A stretch of 48,684 bases of DNA, taken from positions 1 to 48,684 of the IMG/VR virus record IMGVR_UViG_3300020171_000017. One strand, written 5' to 3'. The position numbers were made by a program, and so were the translations under genes. The stretch's first letter is position 1, and each line of letters begins with the position of its first letter. The notes beneath the pieces were generated by a model, which was not told where the DNA came from, ran no database searches, and worked only from the letters and a program-made list of their open reading frames with translations. Below, piece by piece: positions 1 through 48,415 of this stretch. This stretch comes from a virus.

Positions 1-141
1 AATATCCTCCAATTCGGTAAAATTGAGTTCGAGAAACTAAATAAATCCAACAAAGTAGGCCGGGACACGGCCAAACTTAAACGCCCAGGAAGACTGCGTG
101 CTGTAAGACGGGTCGCTGAACTGGGAATCCACCGACTTTAG
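1..141 (+). CDS. C-terminal end of a TnpB-like protein, cut by the window edge
   Basis: The first reading frame is open from base 1 to a TAG at 139-141 and ends in the residues LGIHRL. The stop lies inside a perfect hairpin, which is the usual arrangement where a tnpB gene of the IS200/IS605 or IS1341 type runs into the element's right end. Only about 46 residues are visible, with no catalytic motif, so the assignment rests on the hairpin and on base composition: the stretch is visibly richer in GC than the genes to its right. It is a different element from the complete one at 21020-22510. It could instead be an unrelated host gene end. Confidence 0.5.
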   Translation, partial: NILQFGKIEFEKLNKSNKVGRDTAKLKRPGRLRAVRRVAELGIHRL

Positions 142-155
142 TCGGTGGAGCAGTC
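1..155 (+). mobile_element. right end of an IS200/IS605-type element
   Basis: Bases 128-136 and 141-149 form a perfect 9-bp stem with a TTTA loop, followed by GCAGTCAC and then by the open frame of a truncated gene. Subterminal hairpins rather than inverted repeats, with the hairpin overlapping the tnpB stop codon, are characteristic of the IS200/IS605 superfamily. The exact right end is not certain; base 155 is my estimate because the disrupted reading frame can be followed from about 156. In this family the 3' end of tnpB also encodes the guide (omega) RNA scaffold, so the end may be transcribed. Confidence 0.55.
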
Positions 156-713
156 ACGATTAATAGGGATGTTGATGTGAAAGTTAATAGCGATAAAGTA
201 AGTTATGAAGCGCAGTATTATGATGTGGTTGCTGATATAGCGGTAAATGATGTATTAACAATATCGCCTAAAGTAGGAATGACAAAAGCAAGAATTGAAG
301 ATGATATGAAAAAAATAGACAGTAAAACAGGTTCTAATTTTGGTGTTGATGTTAAAATAAAACTTTATGAAGGCGATGTAAATGCGGTGCTACTTTCTAA
401 GTATAGGTTTTCAAAAATAACTTTCAAAGATACTGTTTTATTAAAAACAAGCCTTCATGAATATGAAGTTGGACCTATTATATCTAAATCGTTTGGAAAA
501 GATGTAGTAGTGTCACCTTATGTCGGCTGTGTATATAGCGAAGTAAAAGGAAGGGTTATTGTTTCACCTGAAAAGGTCAATTTTGATGCTAAAGACAACA
601 TCGGTTTGCGTCTTGGTACAGCAGTAAAATTAGCGAATAACATCAACTTTTTTATTGATGGCGCATTGTTTGACAAACAAGGCATTTCAGCAAAAGTAAC
701 ATACACATTCTAA
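156..713 (+). pseudogene. 3' remnant of an outer-membrane beta-barrel gene interrupted by the IS end
   Basis: The frame is open from inside the IS end to TAA at 711-713. A GTG at 177 could start a 178-residue product, but the same frame continues upstream to the IS junction, there is no signal peptide and no good Shine-Dalgarno site, so I read this as the tail of a longer gene. The protein alternates polar and hydrophobic residues in strands of 8-12, with Tyr and Gly at turns, and ends VTYTF. A terminal Phe after an alternating strand is the recognition signal of the BAM outer-membrane insertion machinery. The family could be OmpW/OmpA-like or an autotransporter barrel; I cannot tell. It may mark the host side of a prophage border or be phage cargo. 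Confidence 0.6.
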
Positions 714-1806: not shown

Positions 1807-2736
1807 ATGCCAGAAGATAAACCAGTAGATCCGTTAGAAGCAGCGTCAGAAGCCGAATATAACGAAAAGATAGTAAACGCTTTTAAGCCTGAACCAAAGG
1901 TTGTAGAAGAACCGATTAATGGTTTAACTCCCGCCGAAATTGAATCTAACCTAAAAAAACAGCATGATTTGAATGAATTGCCTGAAGAGTTTAATGTAAG
2001 GCATATTGGGGATTTAACTTATCTGCAAGAGATCTTTTGTGCTAAATATGATAAATTCAAATCTCTGGATTATTTAAATAAAATGCGAGAAACGATGGTT
2101 CTAGAAGGCCATCAAGAGAGTTCACAACTTAACGAATTTCTTTTTTGGGCGGCAATGAGCCGTAAGATGCAGATTATATACCAGCGCATGCATGCTAAGA
2201 TGACTCGGCAAAAAGGATCTACTGACGATACCGCCGAGAACATCGGTTTGCTGAAAGAGATGAGAGCTATATCTGAACAGCTAGCTAGTTTACAAAGGAA
2301 CATGAGTATTGATCTCGATAAACGCAAGAAAGTCAAAGACGTAGTAGACTTGCACGAAGAGACCATGCAGGCAGCGGAATCGTTTATAAAATCGCATTTA
2401 GGAGAATGCAGCTTTAGGTGCCAAAAATGCGGTACGATAGTGGATACAAAAGGGCTTCCGCATTTCGCGTTTATGACTGAAAAAGATAAGAATACAGGTG
2501 AGACTATATACTATGTTTTTTCACCTGAATTATGGTATTTATATCGTAAAAAGAAAATTGAATTACATCAAATGGCGTTTATTTTACGGACTTCACCTGA
2601 AGGTATACTTGTTACTGCCGATATGCGCGGTGAATATGGCACGAAAATATTGATTGAGAACGTGGCGATGTTAGAAAAAGAAGAGAAAGAACTTAAAGGT
2701 TTGATGAAAGGATTTAATAGTGGAATTGAAAGTTAG
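1807..2736 (+). CDS. putative small terminase subunit (position-based)
   Basis: A 309-residue protein directly upstream of and overlapping the large terminase by 17 bp. An acidic, Pro-rich N-terminus (1-60) is followed by a long helical region (about 95-195) with coiled-coil spacing. A CxxC pair (FRCQKCG, about residues 204-210) then begins a mixed alpha/beta C-terminal domain. Small terminase subunits bind the packaging site and are usually encoded just before terL; the long helical oligomerisation region fits, but the length is above the usual 140-200 residues and no DNA-binding motif is clear. The single CxxC could be half of a zinc site completed in a dimer. An AGGAGG lies about 15 bases before the ATG. 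The function is inferred from gene order. Confidence 0.6.
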   Translation: MPEDKPVDPLEAASEAEYNEKIVNAFKPEPKVVEEPINGLTPAEIESNLKKQHDLNELPEEFNVRHIGDLTYLQEIFCAKYDKFKSLDYLNKMRETMVLEGHQESSQLNEFLFWAAMSRKMQIIYQRMHAKMTRQKGSTDDTAENIGLLKEMRAISEQLASLQRNMSIDLDKRKKVKDVVDLHEETMQAAESFIKSHLGECSFRCQKCGTIVDTKGLPHFAFMTEKDKNTGETIYYVFSPELWYLYRKKKIELHQMAFILRTSPEGILVTADMRGEYGTKILIENVAMLEKEEKELKGLMKGFNSGIES

Positions 2737-4375
2737 CGATATAGAAAAGAAGTTGTGTTTATACTTCGTTTTTCACCATAAAATCGCGTTTCGGGATTTT
2801 TTCATACCGCAAGCTATGGGCAAGCCGTTTCGTATGCATTACTACCAAGTGCCGCCGGCGTTATGCGATGAGCTGGTCTGGGCGGGCGCGCGCGGTACAG
2901 GCAAGAGCTATGACCTTGAATTCTCGATTATGCAAAATCCGTTTCTATACCCTGGAGAAGAGACATTTTTAACGGCTTACCGTAGAACGCATATTAAAGA
3001 CAGGTTAGAAAAGGTAATTACATATTTAAGTTCTGTACCTTATTTACGCAGGTTTTTTAAAGGCGACAGTGAAACTTCGTTACGAGAATCGGTTACCAGG
3101 TCGCCGATCTATTCTATTCGGTTTAAGAACAAACATGAGATATGCGGCATCTCGACGGGCGACGATCCGCAGGCCGTGGCCGTTTCCGGGCACCACCCTT
3201 GCTTCAGATTTATAGAAGAATCCCAATTTTATACCACAGATGCCTGGATGCAGTACCAGAACACCCAATCGCCTAGCGGTTCTATAGACAGATACTATGG
3301 AGTATCTAACGGCAGGCTAGATTCTCCGTTCTATATAATCACGCATAAACTAAAGAAGTTCAAGAACAAACGGTTTCGTGTGCATCGCGCGATGGAGCCG
3401 AATTGGACTCAAGAGCTAAAGAGAGACAAATTATCTACCTTAAAAGGCCCAAATTCTAACGATTGGATACAACAAATTGAAGCGCAAGAGGGTGAACCTT
3501 CGTTTGGCGTGTGGAACGAAGCTGATATACGCAAGAACATAGATTTTATTGAATCAAAAGAAGTACCTGGTACGCTTGCTAATACAATAAAAACAATAGC
3601 GGTTTTAGCAAAAGACTATGTCGATATGGATGCTAATCAAGTACTGTGTAACTTACCGCAACTGCCTGAGAATGGTTTAGAAGTTATTTTAGGTATTGAC
3701 GCGGGATATTCGCAACCGACGATTATATTGCCTTTTTATTTTTATAAAAACAAATGGAACCTGAACTGTAAAATCTTATTATTAGACCGTATGATTTCAG
3801 ATGATCAAACAGAGTTAATAGATTATATAGCTTCATTTTACAAAAACTGTTATTTAGGCATTGATTGTTCTTCAGCAGATGGCAGAGATATAGCCACTAA
3901 ACTATGCAACCCTAAGAATGAAGAATACAATACAAAACAATACGATAAACGTATATTTTTCATAGATTTCAGAGAAGCATTAATTATTGGATATAAACGT
4001 GAAATGGAAAGTGGTAGAGTAGCACTTGTAGAAATAAAAGATCACATGAAGAATTTAACTACAAGAGTATTAAGAGACAAATTTTCTAAGGAAGAATTTT
4101 ATTTGGTTTACGATGAAGAAATGATACCAGAATTCATATCAGAAACACAAAAGACTGAAGGCGGCAGATTAACCATACACACGCCGCCTACGGTGCACAT
4201 ACCGGAAGCATACAGATGTTTCGCGGGTGCATGGTGGAAATTAAAGATAAAGGTAGAAAAACCGCCTTTAGAAGAAGACGCGGAGGAAGAGTATCAAATG
4301 GATTTTCCTACTTATGCGCCAAACGATTTAAATTTATTTGTAAGAAGGCCGGAAAAAGATACAATACCGCGTTAG
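2720..4375 (+). CDS. terL: terminase large subunit (DNA-packaging ATPase/nuclease)
   Basis: A 551-residue protein starting at GTG 2720 behind AAAGGA. The packaging ATPase is marked by a Walker A motif GARGTGKS (residues 56-63) and a Walker B with catalytic Glu in FRFIEESQ (about 162-169). The C-terminal RNase-H-like nuclease is marked by the Asp in LGIDAGYS and by a second acidic site in LGIDCSSADGRD. The enzyme translocates DNA into the prohead through the portal and cuts the concatemer. Length is normal for the family. It overlaps the putative small subunit, and a promoter follows within 12 bases of its stop. The first third (about 2810-3260) is visibly richer in GC than its flanks. Confidence 0.95.
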   Translation: MELKVSDIEKKLCLYFVFHHKIAFRDFFIPQAMGKPFRMHYYQVPPALCDELVWAGARGTGKSYDLEFSIMQNPFLYPGEETFLTAYRRTHIKDRLEKVITYLSSVPYLRRFFKGDSETSLRESVTRSPIYSIRFKNKHEICGISTGDDPQAVAVSGHHPCFRFIEESQFYTTDAWMQYQNTQSPSGSIDRYYGVSNGRLDSPFYIITHKLKKFKNKRFRVHRAMEPNWTQELKRDKLSTLKGPNSNDWIQQIEAQEGEPSFGVWNEADIRKNIDFIESKEVPGTLANTIKTIAVLAKDYVDMDANQVLCNLPQLPENGLEVILGIDAGYSQPTIILPFYFYKNKWNLNCKILLLDRMISDDQTELIDYIASFYKNCYLGIDCSSADGRDIATKLCNPKNEEYNTKQYDKRIFFIDFREALIIGYKREMESGRVALVEIKDHMKNLTTRVLRDKFSKEEFYLVYDEEMIPEFISETQKTEGGRLTIHTPPTVHIPEAYRCFAGAWWKLKIKVEKPPLEEDAEEEYQMDFPTYAPNDLNLFVRRPEKDTIPR

Positions 4376-4386
4376 GAATAATAAAC

Positions 4387-4415
4387 TTGACAAAAAGGAA
4401 TATATATTATATACT
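4387..4415 (+). promoter_or_regulatory. sigma70-type promoter, TTGACA-17-TATACT
   Basis: A consensus TTGACA (4387-4392) and TATACT (4410-4415) separated by 17 bp. It lies between terL and the small gene at 4461. Transcripts would pass through that gene and then meet the first copy of the box-plus-terminator leader at 4635-4700. Confidence 0.75.
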
Positions 4416-4460: not shown

Positions 4461-4634
4461 ATGTCCGAAACTAAATTAGAAAAAGGCATTTGGCAAATAC
4501 TTGAAGAATATTGTGCTGATTTGAAATACGGTGAAATAAATATTACAATCACCGTGCTTCATGGCCGTGGTGTGGCATTTGAAGAGAATCATCCACCGAT
4601 AAGAAAATACAGAGAAATACGAAGCGATAAATAA
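4461..4634 (+). CDS. small protein resembling DUF2292
   Basis: A 57-residue protein from ATG 4461; an in-frame TTG at 4449 is a weaker start. The middle, LKYGEINITITVLHGRGVAF, follows the pattern of the short DUF2292 proteins (a helix, then two strands around a YG.v.i.v..G.v motif), which are common and of unknown function in bacteria. The resemblance is from memory of the family pattern and is moderate. It sits alone between a strong promoter and the first repeated leader, so it would be the only protein made from transcripts that terminate at 4700. Confidence 0.6.
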   Translation: MSETKLEKGIWQILEEYCADLKYGEINITITVLHGRGVAFEENHPPIRKYREIRSDK

Positions 4635-4700
4635 GTCCTACTCTTACACAAAGCTAGCGGGCTGAAATGTAATTATTATTACATATCAGCCCTTTTTTTT
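4635..4700 (+). promoter_or_regulatory. repeated leader element, copy 1 (29-nt box plus terminator)
   Basis: Bases 4635-4663 carry the box GTCCTACTCTTA-C-ACAAAGCTAGCGGGCT (29 nt), identical to copy 3 and with one change from copy 2. The last bases of the box form the 5' arm of an intrinsic terminator. AGTCC at the start of the box can pair with GGGCT at its end (one G-U pair), which would sequester the terminator arm, so two exclusive folds are possible. The portal gene's ATG follows the T run directly. Confidence 0.75.
4659..4700 (+). terminator. intrinsic terminator in leader copy 1
   Basis: GGGCTGA (4659-4665) pairs with TCAGCCC (4686-4692) and ATGTAAT (4667-4673) with ATTACAT (4678-4684). 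A single A-A mismatch interrupts the stem and the loop is 4 nt. Eight T residues follow (4693-4700). It ends immediately before the portal ATG. Confidence 0.85.
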
Positions 4701-6443
4701 ATGTCAAAAAAAGATAAAATCAAAACCGCGATTTTAAATAACGATATGCATGTCGGCGTTATTTCTTCAGCGCATCCGCGTGTGTTGTGGGGAAATAGTC
4801 CTAATGACGAAGATTTTCAAAAATCCAATAGATCAGATTACGGCCGTGTAGTTGATGTACGAGTGCCGCATGGTTACCATGAGCAATGCAAAAAATCATG
4901 GGAGATGTATGAAACCGACAGGTTATTCAGATACCTCGTAGATCGTTGCGGTGATTTTGCCGCTAATGGGTTTGAATGGGAAATACCTATCGCTAAGAAG
5001 ATAAACTTTACTGAATGGTTGAAGAACAAAGTTTTAAAACAACCTACAGCTGAAGAAAAAGAACATGCGGTATGGAGTAAATTCGCCGCGACATTAAACA
5101 AAACCGTAAAGAACGTAATGCCAGGTATAGATGAAGTTAACAACTGGATAGTAAAACATCTTCTGTTGGGTGCTATGGCGCCGTTAGAATGGGAATGGGG
5201 TAAAGTCAAAGTAGACGGCGTAGACTACGAAATGCCAGTGAAAATGGTAATACATAACTCTTTATCTATAGCATTAAATAGATCAACGCAGGCTTTTGCT
5301 GATGAAGAAATGTACTTGAAACTATCTTCTGGTATACAAAGTATAACCGAAGCGATTAAGATATCTCAAATCGGTATTGGCACACAAGTGATGAAAGATT
5401 CAAAAGATTGGCATGAAATAAACTTAATGGGTACAATAGGCAAGCCTAAACTTGAAGGTTTTGCGATAAAGTATAAATGGTCTCCTGGTGACAACACTGC
5501 GTTAGTATATGGTCGTAATGTTCACGTAGGCCAAGGTTTATATCCTACGCCGCCCTTTTCTGGTCTTTATGAAACATTGATTATGCGGCGCGCGTTAACT
5601 GCGGCTGATATAGCCATACTTGATGGTATTATAAACTTTATTTTAGACTGGGAAATAGGCGATAACACTACAATACAAGTAGCGCCGGGTAAAGAAGTGC
5701 TGCCGAACCAGCCATTAGCTGCTAAGTACGACGCTTCAGGCACGAAAATCTCTAAAAGTTCAATTGAAATGGCGAAAGAAATGATTACCTCTGATACTAG
5801 AGGCAACGTAATGCAGTTATTTCATCCGTATTATATGAAGTTAAATATTAAAATCCCGGACACTTCTGTGTTACTTAACAACATAAAATATGTACAATCT
5901 ACTGTAGAAGTATACCAAGCGTTCGGGATTTTACTTTCTCCTGCCGACAAAAGAATGGATTTTAGCGGTATTAATATACAGAATTTCGAACAATTTCTTG
6001 ATAATATAAGATTATGCCATATAAAAAGATTTTGGGAGGCATTAGCTTCTGAAATAGTAGATAGAAACAAAGATAAATTAACCGTAGTACCGAACATGAT
6101 CTTTAAACCGCTGAATACAAAGACTGAAGAGTTTAAACGCAGTTTATTAGAATTGATGAAGATAGGCAAACTTTCTACAGAAAGCCTACATTCAGGTTAT
6201 GGTTTAGATAATCGGGTAGAGATAAATCATATCGCTAGAGAAATAGCTAGTGGAGAGAAAGAACTGACAGATAGGCAAGTACCCGTATCGTTTGTGCAGG
6301 CGAATAAAGGTGTAGAAGGAACTGATGCTGGTAGAAACAAGAAACCAGAAGAAGAAGTTATTGAAGAAGAGGATAAATTAACACCATTACAACAGCAAGG
6401 CAGGCCTATAGGTACAGGTAAACCGAAGAAGGAGAAGAAGTAA
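4701..6443 (+). CDS. probable portal protein
   Basis: A 580-residue soluble protein at the portal position, right after terL. It has the mixed alpha/beta layout expected of the dodecameric vertex protein through which DNA is packaged: a region around FRYLVDRCGDFAANGFEW, a conserved-looking WNxW-like core (PLEWEWGKVKV), and a long helical segment (LIMRRALTAADIAILDGIIN) compatible with the stem and crown helices. The C-terminus (about 540-580) is Lys/Glu rich and probably disordered. No single motif proves the family, so the call rests on size, position and general pattern. The ATG directly follows the T run of a terminator and has no Shine-Dalgarno site, which is unlike the other structural genes. 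Confidence 0.65.
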   Translation: MSKKDKIKTAILNNDMHVGVISSAHPRVLWGNSPNDEDFQKSNRSDYGRVVDVRVPHGYHEQCKKSWEMYETDRLFRYLVDRCGDFAANGFEWEIPIAKKINFTEWLKNKVLKQPTAEEKEHAVWSKFAATLNKTVKNVMPGIDEVNNWIVKHLLLGAMAPLEWEWGKVKVDGVDYEMPVKMVIHNSLSIALNRSTQAFADEEMYLKLSSGIQSITEAIKISQIGIGTQVMKDSKDWHEINLMGTIGKPKLEGFAIKYKWSPGDNTALVYGRNVHVGQGLYPTPPFSGLYETLIMRRALTAADIAILDGIINFILDWEIGDNTTIQVAPGKEVLPNQPLAAKYDASGTKISKSSIEMAKEMITSDTRGNVMQLFHPYYMKLNIKIPDTSVLLNNIKYVQSTVEVYQAFGILLSPADKRMDFSGINIQNFEQFLDNIRLCHIKRFWEALASEIVDRNKDKLTVVPNMIFKPLNTKTEEFKRSLLELMKIGKLSTESLHSGYGLDNRVEINHIAREIASGEKELTDRQVPVSFVQANKGVEGTDAGRNKKPEEEVIEEEDKLTPLQQQGRPIGTGKPKKEKK

Positions 6444-37452: not shown

Positions 37453-38414
37453 AGACGGCTTTAATTACTGGAATTAATGGGCAAGTAGCTTCTTATCTTG
37501 CTGAATTATTATTAGAGAAAGAATATAGAGTTTTTGGAATTATGCGTAGACAAAGTAACGAAAATTTAATTAATATTAAACATTTAATAAATAAAATATC
37601 TATTATACATGGAGACTTAACAGATGAGACATCATTATTAGAAGCCATAAATTTATGCCTACCTGATGAGGTATATAATACTGCTGCCCAAAGCCATGTA
37701 CATGTTTCTTGGATGCAACCTATTTTGACAACAGATATTAATTTAAATGGTTGTTTAAAGTTATTAGAAATAATTAGAAAAGCTGATAAAAAAATAAAAT
37801 TATTACAATGTTCATCTAGTGAGCAATTTGGAAATGTTTTAGAGGTGCCGCAGACAGAAAAAACTCCTTTTAATCCAGTGTCCCCTTATGCAGTAGCTAA
37901 AACTGCGGCGTATTATATGATGCGCACTTATAGATTCAGCTACAACATGTTTTGTTCCAATGCTATAAATTTTAACACAGAATCAGCACGTAGAGGCGTA
38001 GAATTCGTCACCCGTAAGATATCTCAAGGCGTAGCTAAAATACACTACGATCGCACGCAACGCATCACTCTCGGGAACCTTTCCTCCCAGCGCGACTGGT
38101 CTCACGCAAAAGATATCGTAAAAGGCATGTACCTTATTATGCAACATAATGAACCAGATGATTTCGTACTTTGTTCAGGTGAAACACACTCAATACGAGA
38201 ATTTTTAACTGAAGCATTTAGCGTTATTGGTATCACTGATTGGACGCCGTATGTTGAAATAGATCAGAAATTCATGCGTCCAGCAGAGGTGAACTTGCTT
38301 CAAGGAGACTACACTAAAGCTAAAACAGTTTTAGGGTGGCAACCTACAGTTAGTTTTAAAGAATTAGTAAAAGAAATGGTCGAAAATGATATTAAACTTT
38401 TAAAAGTGCCTTGA
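37449..38414 (+). CDS. gmd: GDP-mannose 4,6-dehydratase
   Basis: A 321-residue SDR enzyme with strong family signatures: ALITGINGQVASYLAELL with the double-loop opening, GIMRRQS, GDLTDETSL, YNTAAQSHVHVSW, CSSSEQFG, Y-x3-K in SPYAVAKTAAYYMM, and FNTESARRGVEFVTRKI. The last matches the FNHESPRRGETFVTRKI segment of known GMDs. It makes GDP-4-keto-6-deoxymannose, the precursor of fucose, rhamnose, perosamine and colitose. It follows the HNH gene by ATGA overlap. Around 37980-38110 the sequence is noticeably richer in GC than the rest of the gene, which may reflect a recombined segment. Its stop overlaps the next promoter's -35. Confidence 0.93.
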   Translation: MKTALITGINGQVASYLAELLLEKEYRVFGIMRRQSNENLINIKHLINKISIIHGDLTDETSLLEAINLCLPDEVYNTAAQSHVHVSWMQPILTTDINLNGCLKLLEIIRKADKKIKLLQCSSSEQFGNVLEVPQTEKTPFNPVSPYAVAKTAAYYMMRTYRFSYNMFCSNAINFNTESARRGVEFVTRKISQGVAKIHYDRTQRITLGNLSSQRDWSHAKDIVKGMYLIMQHNEPDDFVLCSGETHSIREFLTEAFSVIGITDWTPYVEIDQKFMRPAEVNLLQGDYTKAKTVLGWQPTVSFKELVKEMVENDIKLLKVP

Positions 38415-38439
38415 TACTTTCCTTTTTATATGGTATACT
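38411..38439 (+). promoter_or_regulatory. sigma70-type promoter, TTGATA-17-TATACT
   Basis: TTGATA (38411-38416) overlaps the TGA stop of gmd, and TATACT (38434-38439) lies 17 bp downstream with TGG before it (extended -10). The first box begins about 54 bp after the -10. It drives leader copy 2 and the second half of the glycan block. Confidence 0.8.
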
Positions 38440-38492: not shown

Positions 38493-38553
38493 GTCCTACT
38501 CTTAAACAAAGCTAGCGGGCTAAATTATATAAACCATAATTTAGCCTTTTTTT
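38493..38553 (+). promoter_or_regulatory. repeated leader element, copy 2 (29-nt box plus terminator)
   Basis: The box at 38493-38521 matches copies 1 and 3 at 28 of 29 positions, differing only at A for C in the middle (CTTAAACAAA). AGTCC at its start can pair with GGGCT at its end. The terminator follows without a gap and an ATG comes directly after the T run. The region between promoter and box (38440-38492) shows no obvious gene. Confidence 0.8.
38518..38553 (+). terminator. intrinsic terminator in leader copy 2
   Basis: GGCTAAATTAT (38518-38528) pairs perfectly over 11 bp with ATAATTTAGCC (38536-38546), with a 7-nt loop and seven T residues (38547-38553). The loop and stem differ in sequence from the other two copies while the pairing is kept, which is covariation-like evidence for the fold. 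Confidence 0.9.
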
Positions 38554-38574
38554 ATGTCTAAAATTGAATGTTAA
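38554..38574 (+). CDS. six-codon leader ORF overlapping the next start
   Basis: ATG follows the terminator's T run and encodes MSKIEC, ending TAA at 38572-38574. It overlaps ATG 38568 of the glycosyltransferase, which has no Shine-Dalgarno site of its own, so the gene may depend on reinitiation after this mini-ORF. The portal gene after copy 1 also opens MSK. Expression is inferred. Confidence 0.35.
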   Translation: MSKIEC

Positions 38575-39536
38575 GTGCGATTTTACCAGCTAGAAACGAG
38601 CCTTATTTACAAAAGACAATCGACTCACTTTTGATTTCAGCCGAAGGCGAGCTAGAGGTCATCGTCATACTTGACGGCTATTGGCCAGAGCCGCCTTTAA
38701 AAGATGATAAGCGGGTAATAATCATACATCGCAGCGAAGCCAAAGGCATGCAGAACGGCGTAAATTCTGCTGTTCAAATCGCAAAAGGCAAGTACATAAT
38801 GAAATGCGACGCGCATTGCCTGTTTGCTAAAGGATTTGATACTATATTAAAAAAAGATTGTGAAGAGAATTGGTTAGCTGTACCGCCACGGTATAGTTTA
38901 GATGTAGAGAAATGGCTGCCTAAAACCGAGAAACGCCTGCCTGTATGCTATGATTTTATTACCTTTCCTTACGGCAACGATGATATTTATGGTTCAGGCA
39001 TTCATGGCCGTAAATGGACTGGCAACAATATGGGGTTTAATAGCTATTATGAGAAAGAAATAGCGCGTAAAGATATCTTAATTGATGATGTAATATCTAT
39101 CCAAGGCTCTTGTTGGTTTATGCATAAACAGCATTTTTTAAATATAGATGGGCAAGATGAAGTACACAGTAGCTTTTACCAAGAACCGCAAGAGATGGTA
39201 TTCAAGACATGGCTTTCTGGCGGCAGGTGCGTAGTCAATAAAAATACGTGGTACGCGCATTGGCATAAGAATAAAGGCAGCCAATATGGCTTTAGTATAA
39301 ATCAGAAGAAAGATACAGAAAAGTTTTCTTCTTGGTGTTGGATGACGAATCAATGGCCAAAAAGAATTAGAGATATAAAATGGCTGATAGATAAATTCAT
39401 GCCGATGCCTGGCTGGTCTAATAATTGGGAAGAAGAAATTATTCAATATTATAAAGATCATATAGAATTAGTGGCTAACTTCAGAATATTCGATAAAGAT
39501 GGAAAGGATGGTTTTAAATTAAATGGATGCAATTAA
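38568..39536 (+). CDS. GT2-family glycosyltransferase
   Basis: A 322-residue GT-A enzyme. The opening LSAILPARNEPYLQKTID is the nucleotide-binding strand. VIVILDGYWPEP and the metal-site region KCDAHCLFAKGFD are almost the same as in the N-terminal half of the protein at 43019 (DGYWPKP and KCDAHCAFAKGFD), so the two are paralogues. GSCWFMHKQHF and YQEPQEMVFKTWLSGGR are the acceptor-side motifs, typical of polypeptide GalNAc-transferase-like GT2/GT27 proteins. There is no Shine-Dalgarno site; start by coupling with the mini-ORF is likely. The next gene overlaps its end. Confidence 0.85.
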   Translation: MLSAILPARNEPYLQKTIDSLLISAEGELEVIVILDGYWPEPPLKDDKRVIIIHRSEAKGMQNGVNSAVQIAKGKYIMKCDAHCLFAKGFDTILKKDCEENWLAVPPRYSLDVEKWLPKTEKRLPVCYDFITFPYGNDDIYGSGIHGRKWTGNNMGFNSYYEKEIARKDILIDDVISIQGSCWFMHKQHFLNIDGQDEVHSSFYQEPQEMVFKTWLSGGRCVVNKNTWYAHWHKNKGSQYGFSINQKKDTEKFSSWCWMTNQWPKRIRDIKWLIDKFMPMPGWSNNWEEEIIQYYKDHIELVANFRIFDKDGKDGFKLNGCN

Positions 39537-44743: not shown

Positions 44744-47700
44744 ATGGCAATAACCAAAGATACAGACAAACAATTATATCGGGATAAGCTCGGCGAAGAT
44801 GAAGTTATTATTGGCGATGAAGTAGACTCTACGAAGTTTAAGAATAAAATTAAATTTACAAAGTGGAACAAAGAAGAAAGTCTTACTATTGACTGCTCTT
44901 CTATTCCAGGCGAGCCAATCCTTGATGTAGACAAACTAAAGAGCAAAGATTTAACCAACGCCGAAAACTTTTATTATCAGAAGTTCGACGAGAACACCTA
45001 TAAGTTCGGGTTAATACTAAAAGAAAAACCATCTGCTGACAAGTTAGTTACCATCGACGGAGTTGAATATTATCAGTGGCAGTTTCAGTTAGAGGGGTGG
45101 GGGAATTTTGATTTCTTTTATCAAGAACCTTGGGTAAATGTAGAAGAATTCATACAAGACGGTGAAATTTGGGTAAAAAATTTAGATGTTGTTGACCATG
45201 CGCAAGTACGTCCTTTAAAAGTACAGGGTAGTTATGCTATTTATAGTAAGATAAGAAAAGAAGGTAAAACAAATAAATTTGGTCAGTTTTATGGTGTAAA
45301 AGTATTAGATTCTAATAATAAATTGTTGTGTCAAATTAATCTTCAAATAATAGATGGTATTTATATAATTAATATTCCACAATCTATATTTAATTATGAT
45401 ACACAATATCCATTACGATTTAATGACGAGTTTGGCAGAACAAGTCAAGGTAGTGGTAGCGATGGTTGGAGCGCAAATCGTATTGCAGGAAGTATTTATA
45501 ATTTATCAGTAGATGGAAGTGTATCAGCAATTCATTATTACGGTGGAATGACGGTAGGAGCGGGTAATGTTAAGGGAATTATATATGATGATAATGCAGG
45601 AACTCCTAATAATTTAAAAGGAGTTACAGATATTCTGAATTTACCTGATACCACTAAAGGATGGTACGCTTTAACATTCGCATCTCCTATTTCTCTTTCT
45701 GCTGGTGATTATTGGTTGATGTTAGTAACTGATACTAATAACAACAGTATTTCGGCAGATTATTCAGGAAGTCCTGCATCCCATTGTAGATATACGGCAA
45801 GTACTGCGGGGAATTATACTTCACCTCCTAACCCTTGTCCTAGTACTACCCAAATAAATGGTTATGAATTATCAGTCCACGCCACCTACACCCCAAGCGG
45901 GGGTTCAGCATCTGAAAGCCCAAGTTTATCACCGTCAATTTCGCCGAGTATTAGTATAAGTCCAAGTTTGTCGCCATCAGTATCACCTAGTATTAGTATA
46001 AGTCCAAGTTTGTCGCCATCAGTATCACCTAGTATTAGTATAAGTCCAAGTGCGTCGCCATCAATTTCGCCAAGTATTAGTATAAGTCCAAGTTTGTCGC
46101 CATCAGCATCACTGAGTATTTCGCCAAGCGCGTCACCGTCGATATCACCTAGTATTTCACCTTCGATAAGTCCAAGTATCAGTATAAGTCCAAGTTTGTC
46201 GCCTTCGGCATCACCAAGTATTTCACCAAGCGCGTCGCCGTCGATATCACCTAGTATTTCGCCTTCAATAAGTCCTAGTATCAGTATAAGTCCAAGTTTG
46301 TCGCCTTCGGCATCACCAAGTATTTCACCAAGTGCGTCGCCCTCAGTAAGTCCAAGTATATCACCAAGTGTATCGCCTTCGATAAGTCCGAGTATCAGTA
46401 TAAGTCCAAGTTTGTCGCCTTCGGCATCACCAAGTATTTCACCAAGTGCGTCGCCCTCAGTAAGTCCAAGTATATCACCAAGTGTATCGCCTTCGATAAG
46501 TCCGAGTATCAGTATAAGTCCGAGTTTGTCGCCTTCAGTATCACCGAGTATTTCACCGAGCTTAAGCCCTTCGGCATCACCAAGTATATCTATAAGTCCG
46601 AGCTTATCGCCAAGTGCATCGCCGTCAATATCACCAAGCATTTCACCTAGCATAAGCCCATCGATTTCACCTAGTATATCCATAAGCCCAAGCTTATCAC
46701 CATCGGTATCACCAAGTATTTCGCCAAGTGCGTCGCCGTCAGTAAGTCCGAGCATTTCGCCTAGCGCGTCACCTTCGATATCGCCTAGTATATCCATAAG
46801 TCCAAGCTTGTCGCCATCCATATCGCCAAGCATTTCGCCTAGCGCGTCACCTTCAGTACCAATTGGATCACTAAGTTTATCGCCTTCAATTAGTCCAAGT
46901 TTATCGCCAAGCATATCACCGAGTGTGTCGCCATCAATATCACCTAGTATTAGCATAAGCTCTAGTTTATCACCATCAATATCGCCTAGCGCATCACCTT
47001 CAATTTCACCAAGCATATCGCCAAGCGTATCGCCTAGTATATCCATAAGTCCGAGCTTATCGCCATCAATATCACCAAGTATTTCACCTAGCGCGTCGCC
47101 GTCGGTATCGCCAAGCATTTCACCGAGTATAAGTCCATCGATTTCACCTAGTATATCTATAAGCCCAAGTATTTCACCTAGCACATCACCATCGATTTCA
47201 CCGAGTATTTCGCCTAGCATAAGCCCATCGATTTCACCTAGTATATCCATAAGTCCAAGCTTATCACCATCAATTTCGCCAAGCATTTCACCTAGTATAA
47301 GTCCTTCAGCATCACCAAGTATATCCATAAGCCCAAGTTTATCACCATCAATATCTCCGAGTATTTCGCCAAGTAAATCGCCATCAATATCACCTAGCAT
47401 TTCGCCAAGTATAAGTCAGTCACTTTCACCGTCACTTTCACCTAGCATTTCGCCTAGCGCATCGCCATCCATTTCGCCTAGCATATCGCCTAGCATTTCA
47501 CCTAGTATATCCATAAGTCCAAGCTTATCACCATCAGTATCACCTAGCATATCACCAAGTGCATCGCCTTCGATATCACCTAGTATTAGTATAAGCCCGA
47601 GTTTATCACCTAGTGTATCGCCAAGTATAAGTCCATCTGTTTCTCCTAGTGCGGTTTATTTAGTGCGATTAAAATCAGCGACCGAACAAACAAGGTTATT

Positions 47701-47752
47701 ATCAGCGACCGAACAAACAAGGTTATTAAATTCTAATATGTTAGATAGTTGA
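44744..47752 (+). CDS. Ser-Pro-Ser-X repeat (mucin-like) protein, putative virion or glycan-acceptor protein
   Basis: A 1002-residue protein starting directly after the last glycosyltransferase stop. Residues 1-230 have mixed alpha/beta sequence of unknown family. Residues about 235-385 are a beta-sandwich-like domain (GGMTVGAGNVKGIIYDDNAG, LSAGDYWLMLVTD). From about 388 to 968 the chain is almost only SPSI, SPSL, SPSA and SPSV units. The tail (VYLVRLKSATEQTRLL twice) ends the protein. The Ser-rich, Pro-spaced stretch is extended and unfolded, well suited to O-glycosylation, and lies next to the glycosyltransferases. It could be a virion fibre or a phage surface mucin. A promoter overlaps its stop. 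Confidence 0.8.
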   Translation: MAITKDTDKQLYRDKLGEDEVIIGDEVDSTKFKNKIKFTKWNKEESLTIDCSSIPGEPILDVDKLKSKDLTNAENFYYQKFDENTYKFGLILKEKPSADKLVTIDGVEYYQWQFQLEGWGNFDFFYQEPWVNVEEFIQDGEIWVKNLDVVDHAQVRPLKVQGSYAIYSKIRKEGKTNKFGQFYGVKVLDSNNKLLCQINLQIIDGIYIINIPQSIFNYDTQYPLRFNDEFGRTSQGSGSDGWSANRIAGSIYNLSVDGSVSAIHYYGGMTVGAGNVKGIIYDDNAGTPNNLKGVTDILNLPDTTKGWYALTFASPISLSAGDYWLMLVTDTNNNSISADYSGSPASHCRYTASTAGNYTSPPNPCPSTTQINGYELSVHATYTPSGGSASESPSLSPSISPSISISPSLSPSVSPSISISPSLSPSVSPSISISPSASPSISPSISISPSLSPSASLSISPSASPSISPSISPSISPSISISPSLSPSASPSISPSASPSISPSISPSISPSISISPSLSPSASPSISPSASPSVSPSISPSVSPSISPSISISPSLSPSASPSISPSASPSVSPSISPSVSPSISPSISISPSLSPSVSPSISPSLSPSASPSISISPSLSPSASPSISPSISPSISPSISPSISISPSLSPSVSPSISPSASPSVSPSISPSASPSISPSISISPSLSPSISPSISPSASPSVPIGSLSLSPSISPSLSPSISPSVSPSISPSISISSSLSPSISPSASPSISPSISPSVSPSISISPSLSPSISPSISPSASPSVSPSISPSISPSISPSISISPSISPSTSPSISPSISPSISPSISPSISISPSLSPSISPSISPSISPSASPSISISPSLSPSISPSISPSKSPSISPSISPSISQSLSPSLSPSISPSASPSISPSISPSISPSISISPSLSPSVSPSISPSASPSISPSISISPSLSPSVSPSISPSVSPSAVYLVRLKSATEQTRLLSATEQTRLLNSNMLDS
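45905..47650 (+). repeat. 12-bp-unit coding repeat, Ser-Pro-Ser-X
   Basis: About 1.75 kb coding for SPSX units, where X is mainly Ile, Leu, Ala or Val. Ser codons switch between AGY and TCN and Pro codons vary, so the DNA is much less uniform than the protein, which implies selection on the residues. There are interruptions, such as PIGSLSLSPS near 46860. An exact 114-bp tandem copy occurs at 46277-46390 and 46391-46504. Confidence 0.95.
46277..46504 (+). repeat. exact 114-bp tandem duplication inside the Ser/Pro repeat
   Basis: Bases 46277-46390 and 46391-46504 are identical over 114 bp (38 codons), and identity runs on to 46407/46521. The first difference upstream is at 46276/46390, and downstream at 46408/46522. 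It shows recent expansion of the repeat tract. Confidence 0.9.
47675..47728 (+). repeat. 27-bp tandem repeat at the end of the Ser/Pro-repeat gene
   Basis: Two exact 27-bp copies (47675-47701, 47702-47728), each coding SATEQTRLL, close the repeat protein's C-terminus. They are unlike the Ser-Pro-Ser-X units and may form a small end module. Confidence 0.9.
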
Positions 47753-47777
47753 TTTTTCCTTATTTATATGATATACT
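47749..47777 (+). promoter_or_regulatory. sigma70-type promoter, TTGATT-17-TATACT
   Basis: TTGATT (47749-47754) overlaps the TGA stop of the repeat-protein gene, as at 38411. TATACT (47772-47777) follows after 17 bp with TGA before it. It leads into leader copy 3 and the connector gene. Confidence 0.8.
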
Positions 47778-47809: not shown

Positions 47810-47873
47810 GTCCTACTCTTACACAAAGCTAGCGGGCTAAAATTGTATCTTCATGCAATTTAGCCTGTTTTTT
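47810..47873 (+). promoter_or_regulatory. repeated leader element, copy 3 (29-nt box plus terminator)
   Basis: The box at 47810-47838 is identical to copy 1 over 29 nt. The base before it is T, not A, so only GTCC/GGGC can pair in the alternative fold. A terminator follows and the T run ends at an ATG. The spacing from the -10 to the box is about 32 bp, shorter than in copy 2. Confidence 0.8.
47835..47873 (+). terminator. intrinsic terminator in leader copy 3
   Basis: GGCTAAAATTG (47835-47845) pairs with CAATTTAGCC (47856-47865), with one bulged A, and the stem extends through TAT/ATG (one G-U pair) to a CTTC loop. TGTTTTTT follows (47866-47873). Confidence 0.85.
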
Positions 47874-47903
47874 ATGTGTAGAACTATGTTTATTAGGAGG
47901 TGA
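47874..47903 (+). CDS. nine-residue leader ORF whose AGG AGG codons form the next ribosome-binding site
   Basis: ATG 47874 right after the terminator encodes MCRTMFIRR and ends with TGA at 47901-47903. Its last two sense codons are AGG AGG, which are also the Shine-Dalgarno site (47895-47900) of the gene at 47906. Tandem AGG codons are slow in many bacteria, so ribosome position here could control access to that site. Inferred only. Confidence 0.35.
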   Translation: MCRTMFIRR

Positions 47904-47905
47904 AT

Positions 47906-48415
47906 ATGGCTATTACCGAAATTTCATTAATTCCCCAGTTGGCCCGCGAAATGGGCGATACTGATAGTTCGAATTTATATTATACTCCAAGCCAACTTTT
48001 CTCGGGAATTAACGACGGAATTTCAGAATTTTCATTAAATTCTCCCGATCAACAATACACTGTAATCGGCAGTGAAGATCTCGCATACATCTCCCCTGAA
48101 CCTAGTAAAGACGACCAGCGCCTTATCGTACTTTATGCCGCGCTTTGCCTTACGAATGGCGAAATTCAAAAGTCGGCACGCACTGCGTATACTCATAGTA
48201 ATCCAGCAGGAAGTACTAATTTAACTAGGATAACCGAATATTTAATAAAACAAGCTGAACGAATTCAGGACAAGATAGATAATGCGTTTACTTCTAGGAC
48301 CAGGACATTAGTGGAAGCAGAATTAGACGAATCAGGAGTTGAGCTAAAAGGACGGTCAAATTCTAGTGATGGTACTGAAGGGATAGGGATTACGACTATC
48401 GAGACAACAAATTAA
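47906..48415 (+). CDS. probable head-tail connector/adaptor protein
   Basis: A 169-residue protein from ATG 47906, five bases after AGGAGG; an in-frame GTG at 47900 overlaps that site and is rejected. The sequence is helical (LAREMGDTDSSNLYYTPSQLFSGINDGISEF, then LIVLYAALCLTNGEIQKSA and LIKQAERIQDKID) with a flexible Ser/Gly/Thr-rich tail. It has the look of small phage adaptor (gp6-like) proteins that bind under the portal. The family match is by pattern and location, not by a motif. A further structural gene follows. Confidence 0.55.
   Translation: MAITEISLIPQLAREMGDTDSSNLYYTPSQLFSGINDGISEFSLNSPDQQYTVIGSEDLAYISPEPSKDDQRLIVLYAALCLTNGEIQKSARTAYTHSNPAGSTNLTRITEYLIKQAERIQDKIDNAFTSRTRTLVEAELDESGVELKGRSNSSDGTEGIGITTIETTN

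Follow-up and report, generated by a model that had tools for sequence, protein, structure and literature searches.

In the pR'-tR'/Q system of phage lambda a late promoter is attenuated by a terminator placed just downstream, with the late genes after it, and the layout of lambda pR-nutR-tR1 runs from promoter through boxA and a hairpin to the terminator. In the RAT elements of the BglG/SacY/LicT systems, a conserved short leader element overlaps the foot of an intrinsic terminator of varying sequence, and the RAT and terminator structures are mutually exclusive (PMC9981650, PMC3369936). The SAS/ESAS elements of cluster K mycobacteriophages comprise 11-19 copies of the 13-bp repeat GGGATAGGAGCCC, about half of them with an inverted repeat, just ahead of the start codons of some of the genes (PMC3203893). 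Here we describe a repeated 29-nt box of an uncultured phage that resembles each of these systems in part.

The window, i.e. the whole stretch of 48,684 nucleotides that was analysed, is part of a 135,529-base virus record in which open reading frames point rightward over roughly the first 69 kb and leftward over the remainder. Because the right-facing arm encodes a terminase-like protein with a Walker motif (2720-4375), a head protease, a major head protein, glycosyltransferases and proteins with tape measure and baseplate matches, we regard it as the late arm. Matches in the early arm (alignment A6) include a Thoeris anti-defence 2-like domain, RlaP, a Mom family protein and DNA methyltransferases. 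A repeat of more than 100 bases, carrying a strong promoter (TTGACA-17-TAGAAT) and the apparent tail of a transposon-type gene, occurs twice, at record positions 131643 and 135295 (the record's end), with window positions 1-177 also listed. The late arm holds all copies of the box, found by sequence search and segment comparison:

4635..4663, + strand, 29-nt box, copy 1
38493..38521, + strand, 29-nt box, copy 2, with a C to A change
47810..47838, + strand, 29-nt box, copy 3, identical to copy 1

The box reads GTCCTACTCTTA(C/A)ACAAAGCTAGCGGGCT. The initial annotation had reported three copies, two identical and one with a single change, and this is confirmed for the entire record, where a fourth copy is found neither at up to 3 nor at up to 10 mismatches; shuffling gave 0 occurrences in 100 trials. 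Segment-wise comparison with shuffles shows 28-29 of 29 positions identical between any two copies (z 10.6 to 12.3), while the leaders, variable stems and downstream segments are similar only at the level of shuffles (z -0.7 to 1.0). As the copies cannot be aligned outside the box, selection has probably kept it, to judge from these comparisons. Apart from the box, the only strongly conserved part is a sigma70-type promoter, which the initial annotation had overlooked and which lies upstream of every copy. Every unit begins with the promoter (TTGAYN-17-TATACT) and continues through a leader of 26-213 nt, the box and the intrinsic terminator to an AUG at the end of the U-tract:

4387..4415, + strand, sigma70-type promoter of unit 1, TTGACA-17-TATACT (consensus scan)
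4461..4634, + strand, 57-codon open reading frame between promoter 1 and box 1, its stop codon touching the box (sequence)
4659..4692, + strand, intrinsic terminator hairpin of unit 1, its first 5 nt being the last 5 of the box (MFE -20.1, z -4.8)
4693..4700, + strand, U-tract of unit 1, running directly into the ATG of the next gene (sequence)
38411..38439, + strand, sigma70-type promoter of unit 2, TTGATA-17-TATACT with extended -10 (consensus scan, 16-mer)
38517..38547, + strand, intrinsic terminator hairpin of unit 2, U-tract to 38553 (folding, terminator scan)
38554..38574, + strand, 6-codon mini-ORF from the U-tract end, overlapping the start of the glycosyltransferase gene (sequence)
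47749..47777, + strand, sigma70-type promoter of unit 3, TTGATT-17-TATACT with extended -10 (consensus scan, 16-mer)
47832..47868, + strand, intrinsic terminator hairpin of unit 3, U-tract to 47873 (folding, terminator scan)
47874..47903, + strand, 9-codon mini-ORF from the U-tract end, stopping just before the Shine-Dalgarno-led ATG at 47906 (sequence)

The promoters of units 2 and 3 match at 26 of 28 positions, and the record contains the 16-mer around the -10 element, ATAT[TG][AG]TATACTT[AT]TA, at exactly three places, one in each unit. A further late promoter, at 1248, has no box downstream. The 57-codon frame of unit 1 has no Pfam match; the same small gene stands at the same place in the relative G4. 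No leader open reading frame is common to the three copies, and a leader-peptide attenuator was therefore rejected.

Each terminator consists of a G+C-footed hairpin with the U-tract directly after it, the classical form of an intrinsic terminator. Ranked by strength of hairpin plus U-tract within the record, unit 1 comes first, unit 3 fourth and unit 2 eleventh. The box had been described as joined to the terminator without a gap; the terminator does follow, but rather than abutting, the two overlap by 5 nt (GGGCT) in all three copies. The 5' arm GGGCU does not vary, even where the strand that it pairs with on the 3' side differs, being AGCCU in copies 2 and 3. This arm is hence constrained beyond pairing, and the foot of the terminator belongs to the box itself. 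The distance from the predicted transcription start to the box varies (213, 47 and 26 nt in units 1, 2 and 3). Fixed spacing to the terminator together with variable spacing to the promoter fits an RNA element and not a promoter-linked DNA site.

These spacings bear on the idea that the box is a DNA element, for instance a junction for recombination, a site of roadblock or a promoter specific to the phage. In its favour, the box copies are direct repeats that bound a glycan/adhesin block absent from G4, and one of the proteins of the record belongs to the tyrosine integrase family. We nevertheless hold this to be very improbable, since the box always ends inside the terminator arm, no conserved -10 follows it and its spacing to the sigma70-type promoter varies. 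No T7-type polymerase was seen in the phage either, in a search whose positive control also gave no signal and is thus uninformative. Window positions 44744-47752 encode a long protein with many short repeats, whose counterpart in G4 is different and similar at the two ends only.

Each unit immediately precedes a block of late genes, the first genes being:

4701..6443, + strand, 580-codon gene, probable portal, after the terminase and before the protease and major head protein (gene order)
38568..39536, + strand, family-2 glycosyltransferase opening the second glycan block (PF00535, 5.7e-14)
47906..48415, + strand, first gene of the tail-side block, ATG at 47906 or alternatively GTG at 47900 (sequence)

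The initial annotation had named the blocks as portal, glycan sub-block and connector/tail genes. The second of them opens with the family-2 glycosyltransferase. The portal assignment is probable from gene order; comparison with PHROG, Pfam and PDB matched nothing to the candidate, and its predicted structure is of low confidence (pLDDT 31). The gene at 47906 has no family match and a predicted fold without significant PDB match. Between terminator and gene there is no room for another promoter, so that downstream expression from the promoter of each unit needs read-through of the terminator.

In the reading that we propose, every unit couples a late promoter to a conditional intrinsic terminator (an attenuator) behind it, with a lineage-specific RNA box bound by a putative antitermination factor; we give this a probability of roughly 0.55. 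Host RNA polymerase would start at the sigma70-type promoter of each unit and, by default, would stop at the terminator after a short leader (in unit 1 after the 57-codon gene). A putative trans-acting factor, phage-encoded or host-derived, would recognise the 29-nt box in the nascent RNA and let the polymerase pass, either by keeping GGGCU from forming the foot of the terminator, as in the RAT logic, or, alternatively or in addition, by modifying the polymerase through a boxA-like core, as in the nut logic. The three late blocks would thereby be switched on together. The sequences themselves establish the three copies and the conservation of the box, the promoters and terminators, the 5-nt overlap, the AUG after each U-tract and the layout kept at the portal junction; conditional termination, action of the box at the RNA level and binding of a factor are inferred from them. 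Attenuation combined with a lineage-specific box explains why the geometry of box and terminator is fixed while the promoter distance varies, why the arm does not change and why the layout is found throughout the family.

The arrangement resembles lambda pR'-tR'/Q in having a late promoter, a terminator just downstream and then late genes. It differs in that qut is DNA at a fixed position relative to the promoter, whereas here 26 to 213 nt separate promoter and box. With the SAS/ESAS elements it shares a phage-wide repeat just upstream of the start codons of some genes, but the sequence of the box is unrelated, and the units of this phage also comprise a promoter and a terminator. HK022 put is a two-hairpin RNA that acts directly on RNA polymerase; the box is mostly unpaired in predicted folds. 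Unlike RfaH/LoaP antitermination, which depends on a NusG paralogue, no NusG domain (PF02357) was matched in the phage by a search in which the positive controls matched. A domain search found no sigma70 region 2 encoded by the phage, and no antitermination protein was recognised in it. That no known riboswitch carries this sequence, as had been stated, agrees with the comparison with Rfam covariance models, which gave no credible match at the sites of this phage or its relatives, also at a relaxed E-value.

As in RAT, the box overlaps the terminator foot, by 5 nt in all three copies, and in three relatives (G4, L118 and L119) a hairpin does so by 7-8 nt. In contrast to RAT, the box of this phage folds poorly and stands before late phage genes and not sugar genes. 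The CAT RNA-binding domain (PF03123) has no match in the record or in G4, with control genomes matched; such a protein may come from the host. The initial annotation had suggested that AGTCC at the start of the box may pair with GGGCT at its end as a switch between antiterminator and terminator. In this phage the AGUCC/GGGCU pairing is weak, with -2.4 to -3.1 kcal/mol against -12.8 to -20.1 kcal/mol for the terminator, and the fold equivalent to that of the relatives (AGUCC/GGGCU with CUU/AAG inside) reaches -3.3 to -3.7 kcal/mol, as shuffled sequences also do. In copy 3, AGTCC has T in place of its first A. If an antiterminator fold forms here, it needs a partner. The proposed switch is better matched in the three relatives, where a stronger equivalent hairpin of 28-29 nt before the portal overlaps the 5' arm of the terminator. 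Their hairpins (loci L112, L118 and L119) are unrelated in sequence and share a shape of 5-6 bp, a 2x1 internal loop with A on the 3' side, 4-5 bp and a loop of 4-5 nt, whereas RAT has two asymmetric loops. These pair counts leave out the automatic alignment, which did not respect the structure. As the shape was noticed before it was counted, the following fractions are descriptive: 0.00025 (G4) and 0.006 and 0.0026 (the other two lineages) of trials with shuffled leaders yield it, and it occurs in 6 of 111 terminators tested, i.e. at four portal junctions (G4 and G2 having the same sequence) and in two weak ones elsewhere. No obvious antiterminator precedes the portal terminator of L113 or L115.

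The largely unpaired state of the box in the minimum free energy folds of the first two copies is also what an interaction with other RNAs might call for. Units 2 and 3 could produce sibling small RNAs of about 110 and 90 nt, with the box as a seed for phage or host targets and the next genes expressed by leakage. A terminator with a U-tail of 6-8 nt is part of the usual plan of small RNAs, and conservation of the seed but not of the terminator sequence would be in keeping with it. This explanation appears improbable to us: no complementary site in the phage rises above background, unit 1 contains a gene, and GGGCU in the terminator arm is conserved as well. For the same lack of complementarity above background, a trans-acting phage RNA pairing with the box was rejected.

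The AUG at the end of each U-tract is the start of the next gene itself in unit 1 and of the mini-ORFs in units 2 and 3. Two closely similar copies of an RRXRR (IscB-type) gene (about 1.2 kb; L006:1920-2936 and L007:3342-4358, - strand) likewise have a hairpin, U7 and AUG right at the gene start and resemble the box units in this respect. Hairpin and U-tract could thus be translation elements, with the U-rich stretch binding S1 before the AUG and the box aiding ribosome loading. This would account for the AUG that follows the U-tract in each of the three units as well as in L115 and L119, mostly with no Shine-Dalgarno sequence between, and for the leaders of the RRXRR genes. We hold such a role to be very improbable, however, given that the AUG of copies 2 and 3 opens a mini-ORF of 6 or 9 codons, that a hairpin before a U-tract is the classical layout of a terminator and that the perfect promoter just upstream would be superfluous.

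The sequence of the box contains the decamer CTCTTACACA, identical to 10 nt of lambda nutR boxA, so that the earlier statement that no nut site has such a sequence needs changing. NutR reads CGCTCTTACACATTCC, and box copy 2 has A where nutR has C. Against the boxA consensus GYTCTTTAANA (PMC5725501), which is gammaproteobacterial and may not be that of the host, the box scores 8 of 11 and 9 of 11. The chance of meeting the decamer within the box is about 2e-5, a figure uncorrected for the many other motifs that might have caught the eye, and we treat the resemblance as a lead and not as membership. A boxA-like sequence, TGTTCTTTGAATA, directly precedes the tmRNA gene of the phage (L005:2556-2957, - strand, about 71.06-71.46 kb of the record; 142.5 bits to RF00023), which sits among about 18 tRNA genes in the early arm and has an unusual predicted tag peptide.

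A true nut-type site would be a narrower form of the attenuator reading, in which CUCUUACACA is a boxA bound by NusB-S10 and, together with a small N-like phage protein, brings about processive antitermination past the adjoining terminator. The order of promoter, boxA-like decamer, hairpin and terminator recalls lambda pR-nutR-tR1, and the C to A change falls where boxA varies, A being the base of the gammaproteobacterial consensus (PMC5725501). Yet the box has A in place of the G that opens the consensus, and the only hairpin is the terminator, with loops that differ between copies, in the place where a boxB with a conserved loop would stand; no conserved boxB hairpin is recognisable. The sites precede late structural genes, unlike those of lambda, and the homologous junction of the relatives has no boxA. 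No N protein was recognised, arginine-rich N-like proteins being too short and diverse for the family searches that were run. On balance we judge a nut-type site to be unlikely.

Evidence from related phages separates the layout from the box. In searches from which near-identical records may have been missing, the box is absent from IMG/VR contigs, annotated phages and the genomes of 85,000 prokaryote species (one per species), and no relative that was found carries it. Both exact and partial patterns of the box gave no hit among viral and genome contigs; on inspection by eye, 53 weaker matches lay in unrelated context with no hairpin plus U-tract and were rejected. The box at homologous junctions of related phages, which the initial annotation had looked to, is thus not a family-wide feature. 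At the terminase-portal junction, by contrast, seven of seven lineages (this phage included) have a promoter, a leader, a terminator and the portal start, in unrelated sequences. In the relative G4 (record G004, 175 kb), many of whose proteins are 60-80% identical and in syntenic order, the small gene of unit 1 recurs between a promoter and a terminator ahead of the portal, with a different sequence before the terminator. A TTGACA promoter, a leader and a terminator also lie right before the portal start in L113, L115 (records G009 and G011), L118 (record G010), L117 and L119/L120, with portal identities of 65%, 51%, 49-51%, 49% and 47%, respectively; the -10 element of L117 is TAGGAT. The far relative G012 (34% identical) has no such terminator at this junction. 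Promoter, leader, terminator and start are present again at junction 2 of G4, while junction 3 in G4 and G10 has almost no intergenic space and no unit. The portal leader of L117 (L117:3522-4001) carries an apparent IS200/IS605-like right end between promoter and terminator, and the terminase-like gene of G4 is split by about 1.1 kb (L014:11667-12821), possibly an intron or homing gene.

Confinement of the box to one lineage would also be compatible with ordinary leaky terminators that lower late gene dosage by a fixed fraction, the box being kept by an unrelated cause or a recent conversion. The differing strengths of the terminators, from -12 to -19 kcal/mol, agree with this. We consider it rather unlikely, as a conversion of exactly 29 nt at three places with flanks that cannot be aligned is hard to envisage, and a strong promoter right before a strong terminator in every lineage would be wasteful if unregulated.

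For the conditional terminator, the points against are the missing box in all relatives, the lack of an obvious antiterminator in L113 and L115 and the weak fold in this phage. Since the relatives keep promoter and stop with different RNA sequences, this phage probably uses the box as a key of its own for terminator read-through. The earlier interpretation is supported in part: attenuation of the late gene blocks finds support in the three units and the portal-junction layout.

The units are short, defined RNAs suited to tests, and the repeated box could serve as bait for a new antitermination factor. A wider and more doubtful proposal, which we put forward tentatively, is that this uncultured phage family controls its capsid operon by an attenuated promoter before the portal, each lineage with its own fast-changing antitermination RNA, here the 29-nt box at three late blocks, with a putative factor that would join boxA-like and RAT-like logic. 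How late genes are timed in large phages without their own polymerase or a recognisable sigma factor is mostly unknown. Promoter, terminator and start at one junction in seven lineages, with RNA sequences that are interchangeable, point to a general late-gene switch.
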